Origin: a virus
Strand: one strand, 5' to 3'
IMG/VR virus record: IMGVR_UViG_3300037628_000166
Span: 1-43,690 of that record
DNA length: 43,690 nucleotides
Below the pieces are notes generated by a model. It ran no database searches. It was not told the origin of the DNA and was given only the letters and a program-made list of their open reading frames with translations. Below are positions 2 through 11,279 of this stretch, piece by piece (positions within the stretch are counted from its first letter, which is position 1; every line of letters begins with the position of its first letter). The translations under genes and the position numbers were made by a program.

Positions 2-3000
2 CTGGAGAACTTCGACGAGCATAAGATCATGCTGGGCTACCGGGATACCCTGGAAGCTGAGGCAGCCTACCGTCGCAATTACACGGACGGTGGCGCACAG
101 ATGGGCTCAGTGGTCGCGATGACGACCCAGGAGCTGCGTGAGTGGCTGGAGACTGCCAACACGAAGACGCCTGCCGTTATATCGGAGGTGGTGTTCGTAC
201 CTGGTAGAGGCGACGTGGACTTCCGTCCTTTCCAACCGGCCATTGACGCAGCTCTCGCTTACACGGCAGCAAACGACATCGAGTACGAGCCAGCGAAGGA
301 GCGAGCCCAGCTCGATACTGTCAGGGCTGCGAAGATCGCGAGAGAGTTCGATGTCATGGAGCATGCCCCGGAAGATCCAGAGGTCCAGGCGGCTTACCAG
401 GCGATGATCGACGAGACCCTGGCTCAGTATGAATACATCCTGGAGAGCGGCCTGGAGGTCGAGTTCATTGTCGGCAAGGATCCATACACCAGCCCCAGGG
501 ATGCGATCCTGGACATCCAAGAGAACAATCACCTGTGGGTCTATCCCACACGAGAAGGCTTTGGATCCAGGGCTGAGTTCGAGGCTATCAATAATCCGCT
601 GCTGAATGAGACTAAATACAAGATTTCCGGCAAGGTGGCCCTGGCGAACGACATATTCCGTGCGGTCCATGATTACTTCGGGCACCTGGCGAATGGCTTT
701 GGCTTCCGTGCCAGGGGCGAGGAGAATGCCTGGCAGCACCATGCGGCCATGTATTCCCCGCTGGCCAGGCGAGCCATGACCGTGGAGACCAGGGGCCAGA
801 ATAGCTGGGTCAATTACGGACCTCATGGTGAGACCAACCGCACAGCGTCGGCGGCTGACACCGTGTATGCTGATCAGAAGATCGGGCTCATGCCAGTCTG
901 GGTATCCGAGGAGGGTAGATTAAGTGCCAAACGCCAAATTATTGAGAGCCGCCCAACAGAGGATGGAGAGCTTGTTGCCCCACCAGTCTCGACAGAAGGG
1001 CGCATCACGCTCACGCACTTCAGCAGCCGACCCAACATCGAGCGGATCGATCCCAGCTTCTACGGGCAAGGCATCCGGGGAGCGGAAGGGCAAAGGGCGC
1101 AAGCCAGGCCGGAAACCTGGATCGACCGCACCTACTACGGGGTCGCACCGGGCATTCCAGGTGGGTATCGGAAGGAATCGGGACTAGGTTCTGAGACCTA
1201 TACGACGAGCGTCGATGCTCGTCTCATGTATGACCTCCAGGCTGATCCAGAAAGCCTGGCAGAAACTCCAGATCTTAATGAAACCGAACGGGCAATCCGT
1301 GATGCCGGTTACTCTGGCTATTGGCTGAAGCATCCAAGCCTGGGCCTGGTTGCGGCTTCTTTCGATCCACTCGAAGTCGAAGCAAAGAAGGGGCCATCAG
1401 CCAGGGCCAGGTTGAAGACCAATGGCAGGACCAGGCGCTTCACGGTTGAAGAAGTCCAGGGATTCCTGAGACCAGTCTATTCGATATTCCGCACAGTCCG
1501 ACCAGTCCATGTCGTCGAGGCCATCGAAGATCTGCCACCGCACCTCCAGGCAGCCATGGAGGATGAACACTCGAAGCGCAACACCACTGGCATGTATGAC
1601 CAGGGCGCTTTCAACGATGACATCTACATCATAGCCAACAACATCACCTCCATGGAGGAGGCGATCGAGACGTTGCTGCATGAAGTGGTTGGTCACTTCG
1701 GGCTCAGGCAGGTCATTCCGCCATGGCGATTCGACGAGTTCATGGACATGATCGCGAAGTCGTTCCCCAAGCAAGTCAGGGAGATAGCCAGGGAATACAG
1801 TCTGGATTGGAATGACACCGCTGAGCGCCGGATTGCTGCGGAGGAGTTCATCGCTCATACCGCGCAACGCATCCTGGCTGGTCAAACAGTCTCGCAGAAA
1901 GCAAAGGAGATCCTGACCAAGATACTCGATGTTCTTGCCAATGTGGTTCGCTGGGCGACTGGTAAGGATCAGATGTTCACCAGCGGGCAGCTCATGTCGA
2001 TCATCGCTCAGTCGAGCGACTTCGTGCAGAAACCAGGTGGATACCAGAGATCGAAGCAACGAGGCCGACTGCGACACGTCAGCGCACCGTACTTCTTCTC
2101 AGCGGTATGGAAGGTATTCAACGAGACCGAAACCAAGTCCACTTCAGCAGAAGGCTGGAAGCAATTCATCACGTCCCAGATCAAGAAGGGCAAGATGAAA
2201 CAGTCTGAGCTGGACTGGATGGGCCTGGAAACTTTCCTGGAGGATGCAACCTGGGGAGGTCTGTACGCACTCACAGGAGGCAAGTGGGCAACAGGGAAAA
2301 GAGATTTCGAGGATGTAGAAGCCATATTCCCCAAACCAATGTTCGAGATCTACAAAGAGCAGCGCGAGCTTGGTGCGGAAATCCAGTCGATCAAAGAAAA
2401 AGCTGACCGACTTCGGAAGGAGGCTTTTTACCTGGAGTTCCCGGAGACCGCAGAATTGGTGGCGAAGTGGAACAATGAAGCCATAGCGTTCAGGGACAAA
2501 TGGAATGAAGAACATCCGGCAGAGCAGTCCCTTCCTGTCAATGAGCAGCGTGATCTTGCTTTGGATGAGGAGCGTCATGATGACCTAACCAAGGAGCTGG
2601 AAGTCTTCGCTAAAACCAAGCCGAAGAAAATTCCAGTGCAAACAATTCAATCGTTCATCGAGCGCAACGGTGTAGACATCGATGTGAGGGAGCCTGGTGG
2701 AGACAGGGATGCAGTGGAATTCGACAGTGAAGAAAATCCGGATGAGGAGTCTGAGCCGGATGAAGATGATTGGTATGAACACTGGCAAGAAATCGAGCAG
2801 AACCAATGGGACAGCTACTATCCAGGTGCCTTGTCAGAGGTCCATGCAGAGCATGACTGGGATCCTGATCTCGAACCAGATCCAGATATTCCTGAAGAAT
2901 CAGATATGGACATCACGGAGCTGAACACTGTTCTCGGTGTCTGGGATGGCACTGACGAAGAAAACATGGATGATGAAGCCAGCGATAAAGCCAGGGAGGC

Positions 3001-6000
3001 TATTGAAACTGATTACTACGAGGAGGCTCGTGACGAGTGGGTTCAGAAGAATACGGACAAGATGTGGTACTCAGGCGAGTATCAAATTCGCACAGACAAT
3101 GAAGGCGATTTCATTGTCAGTCACGAGGGATACGAGCTTGGTGGGTATCACAGTAATTTTGATGACGCAGTGGCTCAAGCCGAAGAACATGGCCTAGAAA
3201 CCACTTCTGGCTGGGCAGATTATATGCTCAAGCCTACGGGCGACGGATACGAGGTATTGTTGTTCCGTTGGGAAAATCCAGACACGGAGCTTTTCACTGA
3301 GACTTCTCACTGGGAGCATGACGATAACTTCGTCGTGCATGTCCGCTTCGACATTCGCAAAGACCCAGACGGTAACGATGCGTTCTACATCGACGAGATG
3401 CAATCTGATTGGCATCAGTCGATAGGCAAGGCAATTAAGGCTCGGTTAGACGAAATTCATAAGGAACACGGCTTTAATCCTGACCACTGGAATGGTGATG
3501 GGACGTTCGGTGGTGGAGAGGAATACGATGGCACTGCACCAGCGGTAATGTATGAGCAGGCCAGGCTGGAAGCCCTGAAGAATCCAAAGCAGATGGTAGA
3601 GTTGGCCAGGGTTGCTAAGGAAAAATTCCAGTTTCTGAAAGAGAATAAGCAGACTCTCATTGATGACCTGAAAGCAATGCCGATGGATCGCCACCTCGCT
3701 TCGTTTCTCAGGGACTCGAACACTGGCGATGACTCGACTTCTGGTAACAGGCTGCTGGCGAAGTATTTGTCGATGATAAAAGCCAGAGAAGCTGACGCGA
3801 TTACGCTTGAGATCGATCTGGATCAATCCCTTCGGCCAGAAATGTTCGAGAAGCATGGTTACGTCGAGTACATGAGCGAAGACCTGAACAAGCTCTTTGC
3901 AGCTTATCGAGAGATCAGGCCGCAATTCGCCACTGGTACAGAGGACGATCCGAATTTAGAGCGCATGTCTGCTTTCCCTGGTTTCCAAGACGAAGTTAAT
4001 AAGCGAGCGAAACAAAAATTTGGTCTTCAACAAGTATTACGTTTGAAGCTCGGCCAGGATCCGATACGTTTTATTGAAGACATCTGGATGACTGGAGTGC
4101 TTCCGGAAGGCTGGCAAGTCGGAGAGTTGAAGGATGCAGTAACCAGGCCGCATGAGCTACCTCCATACGATAAAACTCCTCTCAAGAAGCTGGAGGATGA
4201 AACTGGTGCTTTTGCCAAAGAAGAATTGGGCAGGAGAGTCAAGGACGCTGAGTCAAGAGAAGCCGGACTTGATCCCACCAGCAGCATAGGGAAGTGGGCA
4301 TCTATTCAGAAAGGTGAACACGAGCAAGATATGTGGCAAAGGATTTCCGGTCAGTGGGATCGTACTCAGTTGGATTGGGAGTTGACTGATCTTCCGGATC
4401 TTTTTAGGACTTGGGGCAACATATCGCAGCAGATGGAGCAAACCGCCAGCATTACCAGAGGCATCGAGGCAAATGAAACTGAGCCGCTGCCATTCGGTGT
4501 GATTGATTATTCCTTCAGTAGGAAAAAACGCGACACCATGAGAAGACGTGTTCTGAGCTTCAATGAAGCTAAGGGCGCTCACGAGAGAGTCGCCAATGGC
4601 CATACCTTTGCGCCATTCGAGAAGGACTATCAGCTCCTGGTAATCAAGCACATGATCGCTGAGGCGCAACGACGAGGCCACAAAAGGCTCTACTTCAGCA
4701 AAGGCGAAGTTCATGGTGTGCGTTGGAGTGGTGCCCAGTCAGTTGAAGCTGTCAAGTTTGTGAAACATGCGTTGCCACCTGCAAAAGACGATCCCAATTT
4801 AGAGTTGTTCAGCGGAGAGCTGGCACCAGTTGGTAATGAGTATCCGATCACAATCGTTGCCATGCCTGGTTCCACACGCATTATAGAAACTCGTGACAGG
4901 CACGTAAGAAAGATTGTTGGCGATCGTGTCGCTAAAAAAATTATTGATTCACCGGAGGCTGAAGGCTACATCTCCGCAGAGGACGTGGGGCTTGAAGGCA
5001 TCTTGTTGCCAACGGAAAGCAGTGGCAGGTATTTGACCGGATCCAGAGTGATCTATAACCAGGTCGCCGTTAATCAAATCAACAAGTTCCTGAAGAAATT
5101 CAAAGGCAAGGTAAAGGATACCTGGGTGCCTGGTACTAGCAGCCAGCCAGATCGGGAAAAGGTTGAGCAGCAGGGGCTTGCCACTTTCGGTGAGCGTTCA
5201 GATAGGGGGAAAAGGTTAGATGCTGCCAGGCTGCGTCGTCTGAGAACGTCAGAGGTAGTGGAGCATGTTGCAGGTGGGCTAAACAGCCAGCTATGGCTGC
5301 GATCACAAGAATACGATGACAAGGCGAACGCTGGTATCTGGGGCATCGACATGCCCGATAAAGATGGCCTTATGAATTTCGACACCAGTCTTGGTTTCTT
5401 CGACAGCCTGGAACGAGCGAGGGTAAAGCTGGAGGAACTGATCAAGGCCGAACACGGACGCAACTGGGGATACGAAGCGTTCGAGATTGAGATTACACCG
5501 AAGCTCCAGGAAGCAGCGAAGAATGGATTCCCGCTATTCCACAAGCGAGGCAAGCCGAAGACCGGCGACAAGGGCCTGGACGATGCACTGGACTGGGCGA
5601 ATGAAAACATCGGGTCATCAAAACGACGATCGCTCAAACTTCTCTGGGAGAAAATCAATCAGATCCTGCGGATAGAAAACAAACAGGAGAAGATGGAACA
5701 GGCCATGATTGATCAGTTCGCTGGTCTCAAGTGGGCCCTTCGTCAGACACATGGTTACGATCTTCCTGCTCAGATTTCAGCGTATAAGCAGGCGCATTTC
5801 ACGACCAGTGTTGATTCGCAGATGTACGTGTTCCTGACGCATGGCATTCCTGAATGGCAAACCGTAGCGACCGCTGAGGGCACTGGAACGATCACAGGCA
5901 TCAAGGAAGGAAGCAAAGGACTGCTGGAAGTCTGGGAGCCGATAGCAGACAAGATGGAACTCTGGGGCTACTGGATGGCTGCCAGGCGAGCGGATCGGCT

Positions 6001-8473
6001 GTTGAAGGAGGGCAGGGAGGCTTTGTTCAGCCAGGAGCGCATAGATGAGCTGCTGAAGCTGGGCGATCTGTTCCCGCTATTCCATGATGTAGCGGCTGAA
6101 TATGCGGACTGGAATAGCCAGTTCCTGGATTGGGCCTCGGAGGCTGGTGTCATCAACGAAGATACCAGGAAGCTCTGGGAGCATGCGGACTATGTGCCGT
6201 TCTTCCGCATCAAGTCCGACGAGATGGGCGGATCCTTTGCCAAGAAAGCTGGCATGGGAGGCCCAGGAATTGCCAATGTAACGCAGCCAATCAAGCGCCT
6301 CCTGGGATCGAAGCATCCGCTGGGCGACATCATGGAAAACATCCTGGTCAACTTCCAGCACATCGCAGCTACGACGATGAAGAACAAGGCTGCCCAGCTC
6401 GCAGTAGAAAATCTCAAAGACTCTGGCCTGCTAACGCCAGCCAAAGGTATGGACTTCTTGAAGGAGGAGTTCATTCCTATGGATGAGCTGAAGCGCAAGC
6501 TGAAGCAGGCAGGTGTGGACTGGGAGGCCATGCCTGACGAAGCGTTACAGGGCATGCAGAAGATGTGGACCTTGCAGCAGCCGCCTGGCGACGACTTCAT
6601 TTCGGTGCTTTACAACGGCAAGAAGAAATGGTTCCAGGTCCACGAGGAAACATTGCTGAGATCTCTCACAGCAATCAACGAAAGGAAATTCGCAAGCGTG
6701 ATTGGTCGCATGTTTATGTGGCCACTCAGAAAGTTCAAGCGCCTCGGCACCACCATGATCACACTCGCTCCAGATTTCATGGCGGCGAACTGGTTCCGAG
6801 ACATCTTTATGGCATTCGTGAACTCACGACACACTAAATTTCCTGCGGTTTGGTCGGCAGCGACTGGAGCCTGGAAAGCGTTTACGAAATCGCCTGAGAT
6901 GGTGAGCATGATGGCTGCCGGTGGCGCTTTTTATTCTGGGTATATCAATGCCAACGATCCTGTCTCGACGACCAAGGCGATGAAGCGAGCCCTGCGTCAG
7001 ACAGGATTCAAGAACCGTATCCTGGATGCACCATGGAAGCTGTTCCACTTGTACAACGACATCGGTGCAGCATCCGAGAATGCCAACAGAATTGGTGCCG
7101 GATACATTCCGGCAATCAGAGCTGGTGCTGGTAAGGCGGAGGCAATCTGGGAAAGTAAGGATCTGATGAACTTTGCCAAGCATGGTGATCATGCCCTGGT
7201 GCAGTTCTTTGCTCAGTCAGTGATGTTCCTTAATGCCAGGGTACAGGGCATGGTTCGATACGGTCAGCGATGGTCAGAAGCTCCAGGGCTGACGTTCACC
7301 AAGTCGATGATGTATGCCATGGTTGTGCTGGCGATCTGGTTGAAGAACAAGGATGACGATCGATACAAGGCATTGCCTAACGACGACAAGGATATGTACG
7401 TCCACTTCTGGACTGGCGGGAAGCACTGGAGGCTGCCGAAGTCATTCGAGGTAGGCATGATTTTCGGTGTCGGAGTCGAACGCACGTTCGAGTATTACTA
7501 CTCCAATGAGGATGATGCCGGTAAGGTCGCGATCGATCGCATGTGGTGGGTGATGGGCGAGGTATTCAACTTCTTCAATCGAGAGACGCTTTTTCCGTTG
7601 CCGCAAGCTGTTGCTCCATTGTTTGAGGCGACGAACAACTGGAACGCTTTCTTCCAGTCACCGATCGTGCCGGAGTACATGCAAGACATAGCTGAAGTGA
7701 AACCGGAGATCGTCTTTCGTCCGACCACCAGTCCGACAGCTCGTGAGCTGGCTAAGGGTATGCCGAAATGGGCTCCAGCTACGCTCAGAAATCCAATGCT
7801 GCTTGAGCATCTGACTCGTGGTTATTTCGCGACCCTGGGCGCTTACGTGATGATGTTGTCCGATGACCTGGTGCGGAAGTCATTCGATTACCCAGCCAGG
7901 CCAGATCTCAGGTGGGACAAGATCCCGGTTGTCAGGCGCTTTTACACTGGCGAGGATCCACCATCGAGAACCAGCTACGAGGAGATCGTCTACCAGGTAC
8001 GGGGAAATGCCCGGCAGATCGAGCGAGCTGTCAACAAGATGGAAGACCTGGAAATGGACGATGAGATTGATGCGTTCATGGAGGAGCCCTCGAAATACGA
8101 TCCGACTTTCACCAATGAAGAAGTCGTCGAAGCAGCCAAAGCAATGAGGTTCAGCTACGAGGAGATGAAGGCAATCCGCAAAGAGATAGCGGAGCTGTGG
8201 GAAGACGAAAATATGAGCGGCGAGGAGAAGGGGCGAGAGCTGAACAATCTCCTACGCGACAAGCTGGATGCTGCCAAGGAGGGTTACATGGAGCGACCGG
8301 GCGCGTCTATCCAGTTCGAGGCATTGCAAGAAACGCTGATCGATATGATTCCAGGTGATCAAGTGGATTACCTGGCAGAGCAGGGCCTTGGCCAAACTTT
8401 GGATCTGCTGGCCTCATTACCTGTGAAGCCCAGCACACGACTGCAACGAATTTTGACGGAGAACACAGCCTGA
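2..8473 (+). CDS. Giant polyvalent phage protein (LPD38-type C-terminus), 5' end outside window
   Basis: The frame is open from base 2. The first in-window ATG is at 29 (2814 residues from there), so the true start lies upstream. Numbering from ATG 29, residues 1-45 look like the end of the inorganic-pyrophosphatase-like domain of polyvalent proteins. About 150-300 is a conserved phage module with HDYFGH (214-219) and ETRGQN (about 253). About 326-455 resembles the polyvalent ADP-ribosyltransferase domain (HFSSRP start). A zincin-like HEVVGH lies at 551-556, spaced HExxxH rather than HExxH. A very acidic linker is at about 900-1000. EMQSDWHQ (1123-1130) belongs to another recurrent large-polyvalent-protein module. 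The C-terminal third resembles LPD38 (LPKSFEVG near 2467). Such proteins are thought to be carried in virions and injected to protect or help the incoming genome; that role is inferred. It precedes the lysis genes and its stop overlaps the next ATG. Confidence 0.85.
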   Translation: MENFDEHKIMLGYRDTLEAEAAYRRNYTDGGAQMGSVVAMTTQELREWLETANTKTPAVISEVVFVPGRGDVDFRPFQPAIDAALAYTAANDIEYEPAKERAQLDTVRAAKIAREFDVMEHAPEDPEVQAAYQAMIDETLAQYEYILESGLEVEFIVGKDPYTSPRDAILDIQENNHLWVYPTREGFGSRAEFEAINNPLLNETKYKISGKVALANDIFRAVHDYFGHLANGFGFRARGEENAWQHHAAMYSPLARRAMTVETRGQNSWVNYGPHGETNRTASAADTVYADQKIGLMPVWVSEEGRLSAKRQIIESRPTEDGELVAPPVSTEGRITLTHFSSRPNIERIDPSFYGQGIRGAEGQRAQARPETWIDRTYYGVAPGIPGGYRKESGLGSETYTTSVDARLMYDLQADPESLAETPDLNETERAIRDAGYSGYWLKHPSLGLVAASFDPLEVEAKKGPSARARLKTNGRTRRFTVEEVQGFLRPVYSIFRTVRPVHVVEAIEDLPPHLQAAMEDEHSKRNTTGMYDQGAFNDDIYIIANNITSMEEAIETLLHEVVGHFGLRQVIPPWRFDEFMDMIAKSFPKQVREIAREYSLDWNDTAERRIAAEEFIAHTAQRILAGQTVSQKAKEILTKILDVLANVVRWATGKDQMFTSGQLMSIIAQSSDFVQKPGGYQRSKQRGRLRHVSAPYFFSAVWKVFNETETKSTSAEGWKQFITSQIKKGKMKQSELDWMGLETFLEDATWGGLYALTGGKWATGKRDFEDVEAIFPKPMFEIYKEQRELGAEIQSIKEKADRLRKEAFYLEFPETAELVAKWNNEAIAFRDKWNEEHPAEQSLPVNEQRDLALDEERHDDLTKELEVFAKTKPKKIPVQTIQSFIERNGVDIDVREPGGDRDAVEFDSEENPDEESEPDEDDWYEHWQEIEQNQWDSYYPGALSEVHAEHDWDPDLEPDPDIPEESDMDITELNTVLGVWDGTDEENMDDEASDKAREAIETDYYEEARDEWVQKNTDKMWYSGEYQIRTDNEGDFIVSHEGYELGGYHSNFDDAVAQAEEHGLETTSGWADYMLKPTGDGYEVLLFRWENPDTELFTETSHWEHDDNFVVHVRFDIRKDPDGNDAFYIDEMQSDWHQSIGKAIKARLDEIHKEHGFNPDHWNGDGTFGGGEEYDGTAPAVMYEQARLEALKNPKQMVELARVAKEKFQFLKENKQTLIDDLKAMPMDRHLASFLRDSNTGDDSTSGNRLLAKYLSMIKAREADAITLEIDLDQSLRPEMFEKHGYVEYMSEDLNKLFAAYREIRPQFATGTEDDPNLERMSAFPGFQDEVNKRAKQKFGLQQVLRLKLGQDPIRFIEDIWMTGVLPEGWQVGELKDAVTRPHELPPYDKTPLKKLEDETGAFAKEELGRRVKDAESREAGLDPTSSIGKWASIQKGEHEQDMWQRISGQWDRTQLDWELTDLPDLFRTWGNISQQMEQTASITRGIEANETEPLPFGVIDYSFSRKKRDTMRRRVLSFNEAKGAHERVANGHTFAPFEKDYQLLVIKHMIAEAQRRGHKRLYFSKGEVHGVRWSGAQSVEAVKFVKHALPPAKDDPNLELFSGELAPVGNEYPITIVAMPGSTRIIETRDRHVRKIVGDRVAKKIIDSPEAEGYISAEDVGLEGILLPTESSGRYLTGSRVIYNQVAVNQINKFLKKFKGKVKDTWVPGTSSQPDREKVEQQGLATFGERSDRGKRLDAARLRRLRTSEVVEHVAGGLNSQLWLRSQEYDDKANAGIWGIDMPDKDGLMNFDTSLGFFDSLERARVKLEELIKAEHGRNWGYEAFEIEITPKLQEAAKNGFPLFHKRGKPKTGDKGLDDALDWANENIGSSKRRSLKLLWEKINQILRIENKQEKMEQAMIDQFAGLKWALRQTHGYDLPAQISAYKQAHFTTSVDSQMYVFLTHGIPEWQTVATAEGTGTITGIKEGSKGLLEVWEPIADKMELWGYWMAARRADRLLKEGREALFSQERIDELLKLGDLFPLFHDVAAEYADWNSQFLDWASEAGVINEDTRKLWEHADYVPFFRIKSDEMGGSFAKKAGMGGPGIANVTQPIKRLLGSKHPLGDIMENILVNFQHIAATTMKNKAAQLAVENLKDSGLLTPAKGMDFLKEEFIPMDELKRKLKQAGVDWEAMPDEALQGMQKMWTLQQPPGDDFISVLYNGKKKWFQVHEETLLRSLTAINERKFASVIGRMFMWPLRKFKRLGTTMITLAPDFMAANWFRDIFMAFVNSRHTKFPAVWSAATGAWKAFTKSPEMVSMMAAGGAFYSGYINANDPVSTTKAMKRALRQTGFKNRILDAPWKLFHLYNDIGAASENANRIGAGYIPAIRAGAGKAEAIWESKDLMNFAKHGDHALVQFFAQSVMFLNARVQGMVRYGQRWSEAPGLTFTKSMMYAMVVLAIWLKNKDDDRYKALPNDDKDMYVHFWTGGKHWRLPKSFEVGMIFGVGVERTFEYYYSNEDDAGKVAIDRMWWVMGEVFNFFNRETLFPLPQAVAPLFEATNNWNAFFQSPIVPEYMQDIAEVKPEIVFRPTTSPTARELAKGMPKWAPATLRNPMLLEHLTRGYFATLGAYVMMLSDDLVRKSFDYPARPDLRWDKIPVVRRFYTGEDPPSRTSYEEIVYQVRGNARQIERAVNKMEDLEMDDEIDAFMEEPSKYDPTFTNEEVVEAAKAMRFSYEEMKAIRKEIAELWEDENMSGEEKGRELNNLLRDKLDAAKEGYMERPGASIQFEALQETLIDMIPGDQVDYLAEQGLGQTLDLLASLPVKPSTRLQRILTENTA

Positions 8474-9994: not shown

Positions 9995-10187
9995 TGATTG
10001 CTTTGCAAGGCACAGCGTAAGCCAGTCAGCAGATCTACCTACTGAGGGCTCGATTACGATCAAGGAGTATGTGGACTGGGCGAATGCCCTGGTCGTCGTT
10101 ACTCGCCGCTATCGGGCTCAGGCTCATCGTTGTGGGGTTTTGAATCAAGGGGCTTCCGATCCAGAAGCTCCGATCGAAGAACCTTAA
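9849..10187 (+). CDS. Outer-membrane lipoprotein spanin (o-spanin, Rz1-like), overlapping the i-spanin gene
   Basis: 112 residues from a GTG at 9849. This start is chosen because AGAGGAGA (9835-9842) lies at ribosome-binding distance and because it gives a compact signal peptide ending in the lipobox LSLQAC. An ATG at 9801 is open but would add a basic, unneeded extension. After the lipidated Cys comes a Pro/Val-rich stretch ([13 protein letters not shown]), as in many o-spanins. The first 146 nt lie inside the i-spanin gene in a different frame, and the rest extends 193 nt beyond it. The 3' end overlaps the convergent csrA gene by 89 bp, which is unusual because the two genes lie on opposite strands. 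Confidence 0.8.
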
Positions 10188-10305
10188 TCTGTCTCGGTGC
10201 TTCTATGCCCAGTCTCACCTGTCCGCCTCTCGTCCCTAACACTGTTATCGTGACTGCTTCCCCGATGTTTATTGATTCGCCCTGGTTCCTTGTCAGAATC
10301 AGCAT
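10099..10305 (-). CDS. csrA: CsrA/RsmA-family RNA-binding translational regulator
   Basis: 68 residues beginning [15 protein letters not shown], followed by a VTITVLG strand, a VRLGIEAPR motif and VLRSEL. This is the full CsrA core: strand 1 with the RNA-contacting L4 and R6 positions, and the conserved R44-region VRLGIEAP. The tail (after about residue 52) is acidic and not part of the core. Cellular CsrA binds ANGGA motifs, usually in hairpin loops at ribosome binding sites, and changes translation or mRNA stability. The ATG at 10305 is preceded by GGAGAAAAGGG. It is the last gene of the long leftward block and converges with the o-spanin gene. A longer in-frame extension to 10431 looks like non-protein sequence and is rejected. 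Confidence 0.9.
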
Positions 10306-10543
10306 CCCTTTTCTCCGTTTCCTGATACTCATCGATGGCGGCGATGATGGTGCGTAGTGTATCGGCTTTTGCAGATCCGTCAATGGAGGGTTTACTGGTA
10401 GCCAGCATGACCAGGAGATCTTCCAGCTCATTCCATAGAGCGTTCAGATCTTTATGCTCAGCCTCACCGATCGGCCTGGTAAGATTTTGCAGCCGATCGA
10501 TGAGGTCTTGTGCCCTGGCAACGGGGTGATCGCAGACAGTCAT
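10184..10543 (-). CDS. Hypothetical phage protein overlapping csrA start
   Basis: 119 residues. The first 75 are helical and protein-like ([36 protein letters not shown]). The last 40 are Arg/Asp/Ser-rich and overlap the 5' part of csrA in another frame by about 120 nt, so the tail may simply be imposed by csrA coding. The start ATG at 10543 lacks a strong ribosome binding site. No family recognised. Its place directly upstream of csrA suggests coupled expression. Confidence 0.55.
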
Positions 10544-11112: not shown

Positions 11113-11279
11113 TGGGGAGCGTCCCAGGAGTCGAACCTGGGCGTGGATGGGTAGTTAGCCCACTTGCCACTGGTCGCAGGGAGTATGAGGGGCTTCCTCG
11201 AACTCAAGCAATCGGTATGATCTCGATGCTTGAGCTTCTAATCTCCCTACCAGCACGGCTGCCGCTTCGTCACCGCTCC
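11113..11279 (-). ncRNA. 167-nt tRNA-like structured RNA with extended arm in place of the anticodon arm
   Basis: Read on the minus strand. The 5' end GGAGCGG (11279-11273) pairs with CGCTCC (11121-11116), which is followed directly by CCA (11115-11113). TG at positions 8-9 precedes a D-arm-like ACG/CGT stem with AGCGG in the loop. A canonical T-arm, CCCAGG-TTCGACT-CCTGGG, lies at 11141-11123. Where an anticodon arm belongs, CTGGTAGGGAG (11253-11243) pairs with CTCCCT and ACCAG (11183-11178, 11174-11170) across a GCG bulge. This encloses a long hairpin, CTCAAGCA/TGCTTGAG with inner TCG/CGA and outer GAA/TTC, and a GAGG/CCTC hairpin. A long variable region can form TGGG/CCCA. There is no anticodon loop with U33. 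It lies alone between two minus-strand genes, starting 5 nt after a stop codon. Whether it is a functional tRNA mimic, a processing signal or a tRNA carrying an insertion is unknown. Confidence 0.55.

Follow-up and report, generated by a model that had tools for sequence, protein, structure and literature searches.

On the minus strand of the IMG/VR virus record analyzed here (43,690 bases, referred to in full as the window), a tRNA-like RNA lies between two genes encoding proteins of 97 and 173 aa (Table 1). Structure prediction for the 173-aa protein was uninformative (pLDDT 51). A gene of the CsrA family is found one gene downstream of it; the annotated open reading frame of this gene carries 42 extra N-terminal residues, and its true start is probably internal. 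The record also begins with a 2814-aa open frame (29-8473), which has partial matches only, to phage families without known function.

Table 1. Coordinates of the tRNA-like RNA, its parts and the neighboring genes in the window
Feature	Position	Strand	Remarks
Upstream gene, 97 aa	11285..11578	-	Function not recognized (phrog_10287, weak); stop codon 5 nt before the RNA
Whole tRNA-like RNA	11113..11279	-	G1 = 11279, C73 = 11115, 11114-11113 = CA; four distinct orthologues
Acceptor stem, 5' strand GGAGCG	11274..11279	-	Partner 11116-11121 CGCTCC; invariant
D-arm	11255..11270	-	3-bp stem ACG/CGT, 10-nt loop AAGCGGCAGC with A14, G15, G18-G19; differs from RNAfold minimum
Anticodon-position stem, 5' strand CTGGT	11249..11253	-	Partner 11170-11174 ACCAG; invariant
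Second helix, 5' strand GGGAG	11243..11247	-	Partner 11179-11183 CTCCC; L006 has GAGGG/CCCTT (two compensatory pairs, one G-U)
Hypervariable hairpin 1, within the anticodon-arm replacement	11201..11236	-	Hairpin of unrelated sequence here in 4/4
Small hairpin 2 (GAGG/CCTC)	11187..11199	-	Predicted also in L007; not in L002, L006
Bulge TGC, then invariant G(A)	11175..11178	-	AGC, ATC, GAC in relatives; A opposite G at 11248; putatively kink-turn-like
Long variable arm	11143..11169	-	Basal stem retained; one compensatory pair (G-C to A-U in L002)
T-arm CCCAGG-TTCGACT-CCTGGG	11123..11141	-	Sole variant: R57 G to A in L007
Acceptor stem, 3' strand CGCTCC	11116..11121	-	C73 next
Downstream gene, 173 aa	10566..11087	-	Function not recognized; Shine-Dalgarno AGGAGAAG
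CsrA-family gene	10099..10431		PF02599, E 4e-22; kept in relatives
Other copies of the RNA			L002 = L003 = L004, 160 nt; L006, 132 nt; L007, 180 nt

The RNA is present in five other IMG/VR contigs, making six records and four distinct sequences of 132-180 nt, always between the same two genes and within a long syntenic block that includes genes for RecT, exonucleases, SSB, and others. A covariance search of relatives, as proposed in an earlier reading made from the window's sequence alone, placed it in the same gap with one copy per record. The same contigs were returned whether the query was the 173-aa protein, the 97-aa protein, or the 5' half of the RNA, and looser patterns run against IMG/VR recovered the same five contigs together with unrelated matches only. 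Two further close relatives are uninformative, L005 starting about 100 nt upstream of the 173-aa gene and L026 ending inside a 160-aa gene before the place of the RNA; at the end of the L005 contig (1-104), a different, hairpin-rich sequence occupies the same intergenic place just before the 173-aa gene. In distant relatives found via the exonuclease gene, the RNA is absent as judged by the covariance model R1.

The distance from the RNA to the start codon of the 173-aa gene is about 26 nt in the window and about 136 nt in L006 and L007. In these two contigs, a second conserved element of about 110 nt (L006 2865-2998; L007 2867-2998) separates the tRNA-like RNA from the 173-aa gene; it reads GCATG..CCTGAA..TCGCGA..CAAGTA..GTGTCATG..GAGTGAGGAGGTGGCT..CTGAACGCCTCCAGATT, is absent from the window and L002, and has no match in Rfam.

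Anatomy of the RNA

Read along the minus strand from 11279 to 11113, the RNA is GGAGCG GTG ACG-AAGCGGCAGC-CGT G CTGGT A GGGAG ... CTCCC TGC G ACCAG, followed by the variable arm and then by CCCAGG TTCGACT CCTGGG A CGCTCC C CA. The features listed by the sequence-only reading are largely borne out: the paired GGAGCG/CGCTCC ends, T8-G9, the AGCGG of the D-loop, and the 6-bp T-stem with its TTCGACT loop are all present, as are the long arm helix, in which CTGGTAGGGAG pairs with CTCCCT(GCG)ACCAG, a small hairpin, and a hairpin described as 14 bp and here counted as 13-14 bp. The variable region is also there, at 27 nt instead of the claimed length of about 29 nt. The encoded CCA did not hold up; it is specific to the window, the two letters after C73 being CA, AT, AA, or AC among the four sequences, and an encoded CCA in the register of a tRNA is found in none of the copies.

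The acceptor stem, a T-arm with TTCRA, the D-loop GG, and the elbow residues expected of a tRNA were all found, and the core matches the tRNA consensus at U8, A14, R15, G18G19, Y48, G53, T54, T55, C56, R57, A58, Y60, and C61, positions that are well established for tRNAs. The stack of acceptor and T-arm differs in its partition, with 6+6 bp and a G.A layer (G7-A66) between the two stems in place of the standard 7+5, and the acceptor is followed in all four sequences by C73, an uncommon discriminator.

At the anticodon position, the arm begins with a five-pair stem (CTGGT/ACCAG), continues with an A facing NNC-G, and leads into a second five-pair helix; an insert of about 40-80 nt, bordered by the invariant letters TAG...CGA, takes the place of the loop. 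Neither U33 nor a 7-nt anticodon loop occurs in any of the four sequences, the first loop position being an invariant A; judged from these letters, the RNA therefore cannot decode. A kink-turn would have a 3-nt bulge followed by two sheared G.A pairs; in the arm, a bulge NNC and one G.A pair are conserved, and the second pair is A-U and not A.G. On sequence features only, the bulge followed by GA is a candidate kink-turn-like motif.

Conservation, covariation, and detection

In an alignment of the four sequences, 68 of the 72 columns of the core (acceptor stem, D-arm, T-arm, and anticodon-type stem) are invariant, compared with 49-65% of the columns in the flanking genes of the same four phages (binomial P about 3e-9 at p = 0.648, with columns treated as independent). 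The few changes within the core obey tRNA rules, an example being purine 57, which is G in three sequences and A in L007 and is the only difference in the T-loop. Conservation ends sharply at the acceptor on both sides (5' flanks AAC, AGT, GAT, and TAT; 3' flanks after C73 CAT, ATT, AAC, and ACA). By contrast with the core, the insert that replaces the anticodon arm has 3 invariant columns out of 60 and the variable arm 3 out of 40, although both retain their basal stems; the hairpin after GATTAGA is of unrelated sequence in each relative, yet folding is predicted in every case. None of the reading frames stays open across the four sequences.

Across the four sequences, all 108 pair cells of the named structure are standard (100%), a proportion that drops to 39-51% when the partners are slid. 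Compensatory changes, which the sequence-only reading had suggested looking for in relatives, were found at three pairs: two double changes in the second arm helix of L006, accompanied by one G-U, and one in the variable-arm stem of L002. In these four distinct sequences there is no variation in the acceptor, D, T, and anticodon-type stems, which thus provide no covariation evidence for or against their pairing. The variable arm is near-identical in the window and L006, although their genes are only 74-77% identical, and that of L002 differs from the arm in the window, although the genes of L002 are the closest to those of the window (85-90%). Because the likeness of the arms disagrees in this way with the likeness of the genes, the arms seem to have been exchanged or replaced as modules around a fixed core.

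The RNA of the window is predicted to fold at -72.2 kcal/mol (RNAfold; z = -3.9, with none of 200 dinucleotide shuffles as stable); tested alone, only the insert of the window and two of the four variable arms were better than shuffles. RNAfold favors an alternative hairpin over the D-stem, at a penalty for the latter of 2.5-6.6 kcal/mol; the cloverleaf of a genuine E. coli tRNA-Ser was likewise missed by this program, and with the alternative hairpin the invariant ACCAG has nothing to pair with in most copies. A tRNA-elbow descriptor (a perfect T-arm, a 6-bp acceptor, TG plus GG D-loop spacing, and any middle) had a single match in the 43.7-kb window, exactly at this RNA, and none in 60 shuffles, figures that are a rough guide since the descriptor was written after the element had been seen.

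Neither ARAGORN at default settings nor the tRNA covariance model RF00005 matched the RNA. In relaxed mode, recommended as a check beforehand, with an intron allowed and a relaxed score threshold, ARAGORN reported a tRNA at these coordinates, interrupted by a 74-nt 'intron', but its output also contained unrelated candidates that overlapped. Rfam gave no match at gathering or relaxed thresholds, and BLAST searches against 50,697 phage records and against plasmids returned chance-level short matches only, some of which fell within the T-arm of ordinary tRNAs. Neither half of the RNA, 5' or 3', was found as an exact pattern in 84,980 bacterial and archaeal species genomes.

Taken together, the alignment and the syntenic context establish the element as a conserved, structured non-coding RNA with a tRNA-like core, a fixed genomic place, and one copy per record. 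The initial view of a tRNA-like RNA in which a long branched helix takes the place of the anticodon arm is supported, all four orthologues keeping the core almost unchanged in sequence.

Comparison with known tRNA-like RNAs

The resemblance to tmRNA (SsrA) pointed out from the sequence stands as an analogy only. Like tmRNA, a tRNA mimic that does not decode, the phage RNA combines a tRNA acceptor, T-arm, and elbow with a long helix replacing the anticodon arm; unlike tmRNA, it is half as long, contains no tag frame, has a long variable arm, possesses a full D-stem where tmRNA has a D-loop, and carries A-U at pair 3-70 in all four sequences in place of the G-U that is the alanine identity pair. 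We rejected an assignment to tmRNA on the grounds that G3-U70, a conserved open frame, and a match to the Rfam tmRNA models are all missing and that 132-180 nt is too short.

Bacterial Y RNA (YrlA; RF02553), which has been reported from phages too, similarly has tRNA D, T, and acceptor arms with a long stem at the anticodon position. However, the acceptor of YrlA is closed by a loop and the two ends of the molecule lie in the long stem, whereas the phage RNA has its ends in the acceptor, together with a class-II-like D-arm and a long variable arm. This candidate was also rejected, as RF02553 does not match the RNA although the model recognizes a Y-RNA-like element elsewhere in our data set (E = 2e-7). 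A gene for a TROVE/Ro60/Rsr partner was not found in 7 virus records, which may be incomplete, and the host could supply such a partner; no vWA/Ro60-like partner was recognized in the window. The Y-RNA-like element, which comprises a circularly permuted tRNA domain, lies on a distant phage contig (L032 5566-5686; YrlA, 39.3 bits, below the gathering score) downstream of a related exonuclease gene and is followed by a gene (6061-6984) whose 308-aa product contains a MIDAS-like motif, DVTGSMGS, and matches nothing in Pfam.

Among true tRNAs, the closest likeness is to class II (tRNA-Ser, tRNA-Leu, and tRNA-Sec), with which the RNA shares a GGAG.GGTG.C..AG.GGC 5' half, a long variable arm, and a canonical T-loop. 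The Ser and Leu synthetases do not read the anticodon. The phage RNA departs from class II in having no anticodon loop, in its 6+6 stack with a G.A layer, in C73, and in its two hypervariable arms; an ordinary tRNA was rejected in view of the missing U33 and 7-nt loop and the invariant TAG...CGA around the insert. The yjdF riboswitch resembles it as a tRNA-like fold in mRNA upstream of a gene, but the phage RNA has another sequence and other arms, lies far from the start codon in two relatives, matches no Rfam model, and has no yjdF-type gene downstream. The tRNA-like structures of plant viruses are also viral imitations of tRNA; they form the 3' ends of RNA genomes, whereas the phage RNA lies inside an operon of a DNA phage.

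Proposed function as a phage-encoded tRNA mimic

The explanation that we prefer, with moderate confidence, is that the element is a phage-encoded, tRNA-mimicking non-coding RNA that is excised from an operon transcript by host enzymes and acts in trans; its excision, CCA addition, partner, and trans function are what we infer. Because the stop codon of the upstream gene lies 5 nt before G1, the RNA would have to come from the operon transcript itself, or else from a promoter within the upstream gene, where none was found on its strand; the transcript would be that of a polycistronic DNA-replication and recombination operon. RNase P identifies the stack of T-arm and acceptor from its shape and also cuts substrates other than tRNA, tmRNA among them (PMC4919913); excision at G1, most likely by the host enzyme, would therefore be expected. 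Trimming behind C73 would most likely fall to the host enzymes that process tRNA 3' ends, and these may add CCA as well. The mature RNA would then retain an acceptor, a D/T elbow, an anticodon-type stem, and a long class-II-like variable arm, with no anticodon loop, and its outer arms would be structural extensions whose sequence hardly matters. Most likely, it would work in trans, keeping occupied some factor of the host or the phage that recognizes the elbow and acceptor of tRNA; candidate partners are EF-Tu, a processing enzyme, a modification enzyme, or a class-II synthetase indifferent to the anticodon (SerRS or LeuRS, for example).

The same processing could be the whole purpose of the element, which would then only mark the cuts by host RNase P and 3' tRNA-processing enzymes that separate the messages of the 97-aa and 173-aa proteins, the released RNA being a by-product. 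The intercistronic place, the 5-nt upstream spacing, and the coincidence of the limits of conservation with the ends of the acceptor fit this idea, as does the finding that RNase P requires little beyond the T-arm/acceptor stack (PMC4919913). We nevertheless consider it unlikely, given that the letters of the D-arm, the anticodon-type stem, and the acceptor are all invariant, although RNase P would not need them. A stable RNA acting in trans is favored precisely because excision alone would not require a frozen D-arm and anticodon-type stem.

Strong conservation could also serve a function in cis, and the RNA might be a leader of the 173-aa gene in which the tRNA-like fold enhances or switches translation. 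There is precedent in the yjdF riboswitch, a tRNA-like leader in whose off state the T-loop region pairs with the Shine-Dalgarno sequence, and in authentic tRNAs that raised translation when grafted into leaders (PMC9142559). In the window, CTCCT(GG) of the T-arm can pair with the AGGAG Shine-Dalgarno sequence of the 173-aa gene, and the CsrA-family gene is close downstream. However, T-arms and Shine-Dalgarno sites have CTCC and GGAG in their consensus, such that chance complementarity is expected, and the pairing is weaker in L002; moreover, the much greater distance to the start codon in L006 and L007, with another conserved element intervening, leaves a leader function doubtful. A CsrA sponge was considered in view of the nearby CsrA gene and rejected, as no conserved, loop-displayed GGA repeats were found by eye.

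A tRNA with an insertion, as also raised by the sequence-only reading, would be a class-II-type gene whose intron-like insert is spliced out to yield a normal tRNA. The class-II-like 5' half, the long variable arm, and the relaxed, intron-allowing ARAGORN call agree with such a gene, but the invariant ends (T)AG...CGA give neither U33 nor a 7-nt loop in any copy, the bulge is on one strand only and thus forms no BHB motif, no group I hallmarks were seen, and insert lengths vary freely. The CsrA, RecT, and terminase genes further point to a bacterial host, and BHB splicing is not known from bacteria; a spliced tRNA is accordingly very improbable. Least credible of all is an attachment site or a degenerate host tRNA copy: phages commonly use the 3' ends of tRNAs for attachment, but the 27-nt 3' domain occurs in 0 of 84,980 species genomes, no integrase was recognized among the window proteins scanned (a subset of the open reading frames), and the element lies inside an operon with its whole core, and not just its 3' end, conserved.

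Returning to the trans-acting tRNA mimic, we tentatively suggest that it might constitute a new class of phage RNA, a non-decoding, class-II-like mimic with kinked, freely evolving arms that would be aminoacylated (e.g., by SerRS or LeuRS) or, during infection, would capture a different factor that reads the elbow. Few natural mimics of tRNA are known besides tRNAs themselves, namely tmRNA, Y RNA, tRNA-like riboswitches, and the 3' ends of plant viruses, and a DNA-phage family with a mimic of its own, absent from Rfam, would add a new architecture to them. Clear mutational predictions follow from the extreme difference between the frozen core and the rewritten arms, and such a mimic would make it possible to ask which of the host factors that handle tRNA must be occupied by phages.
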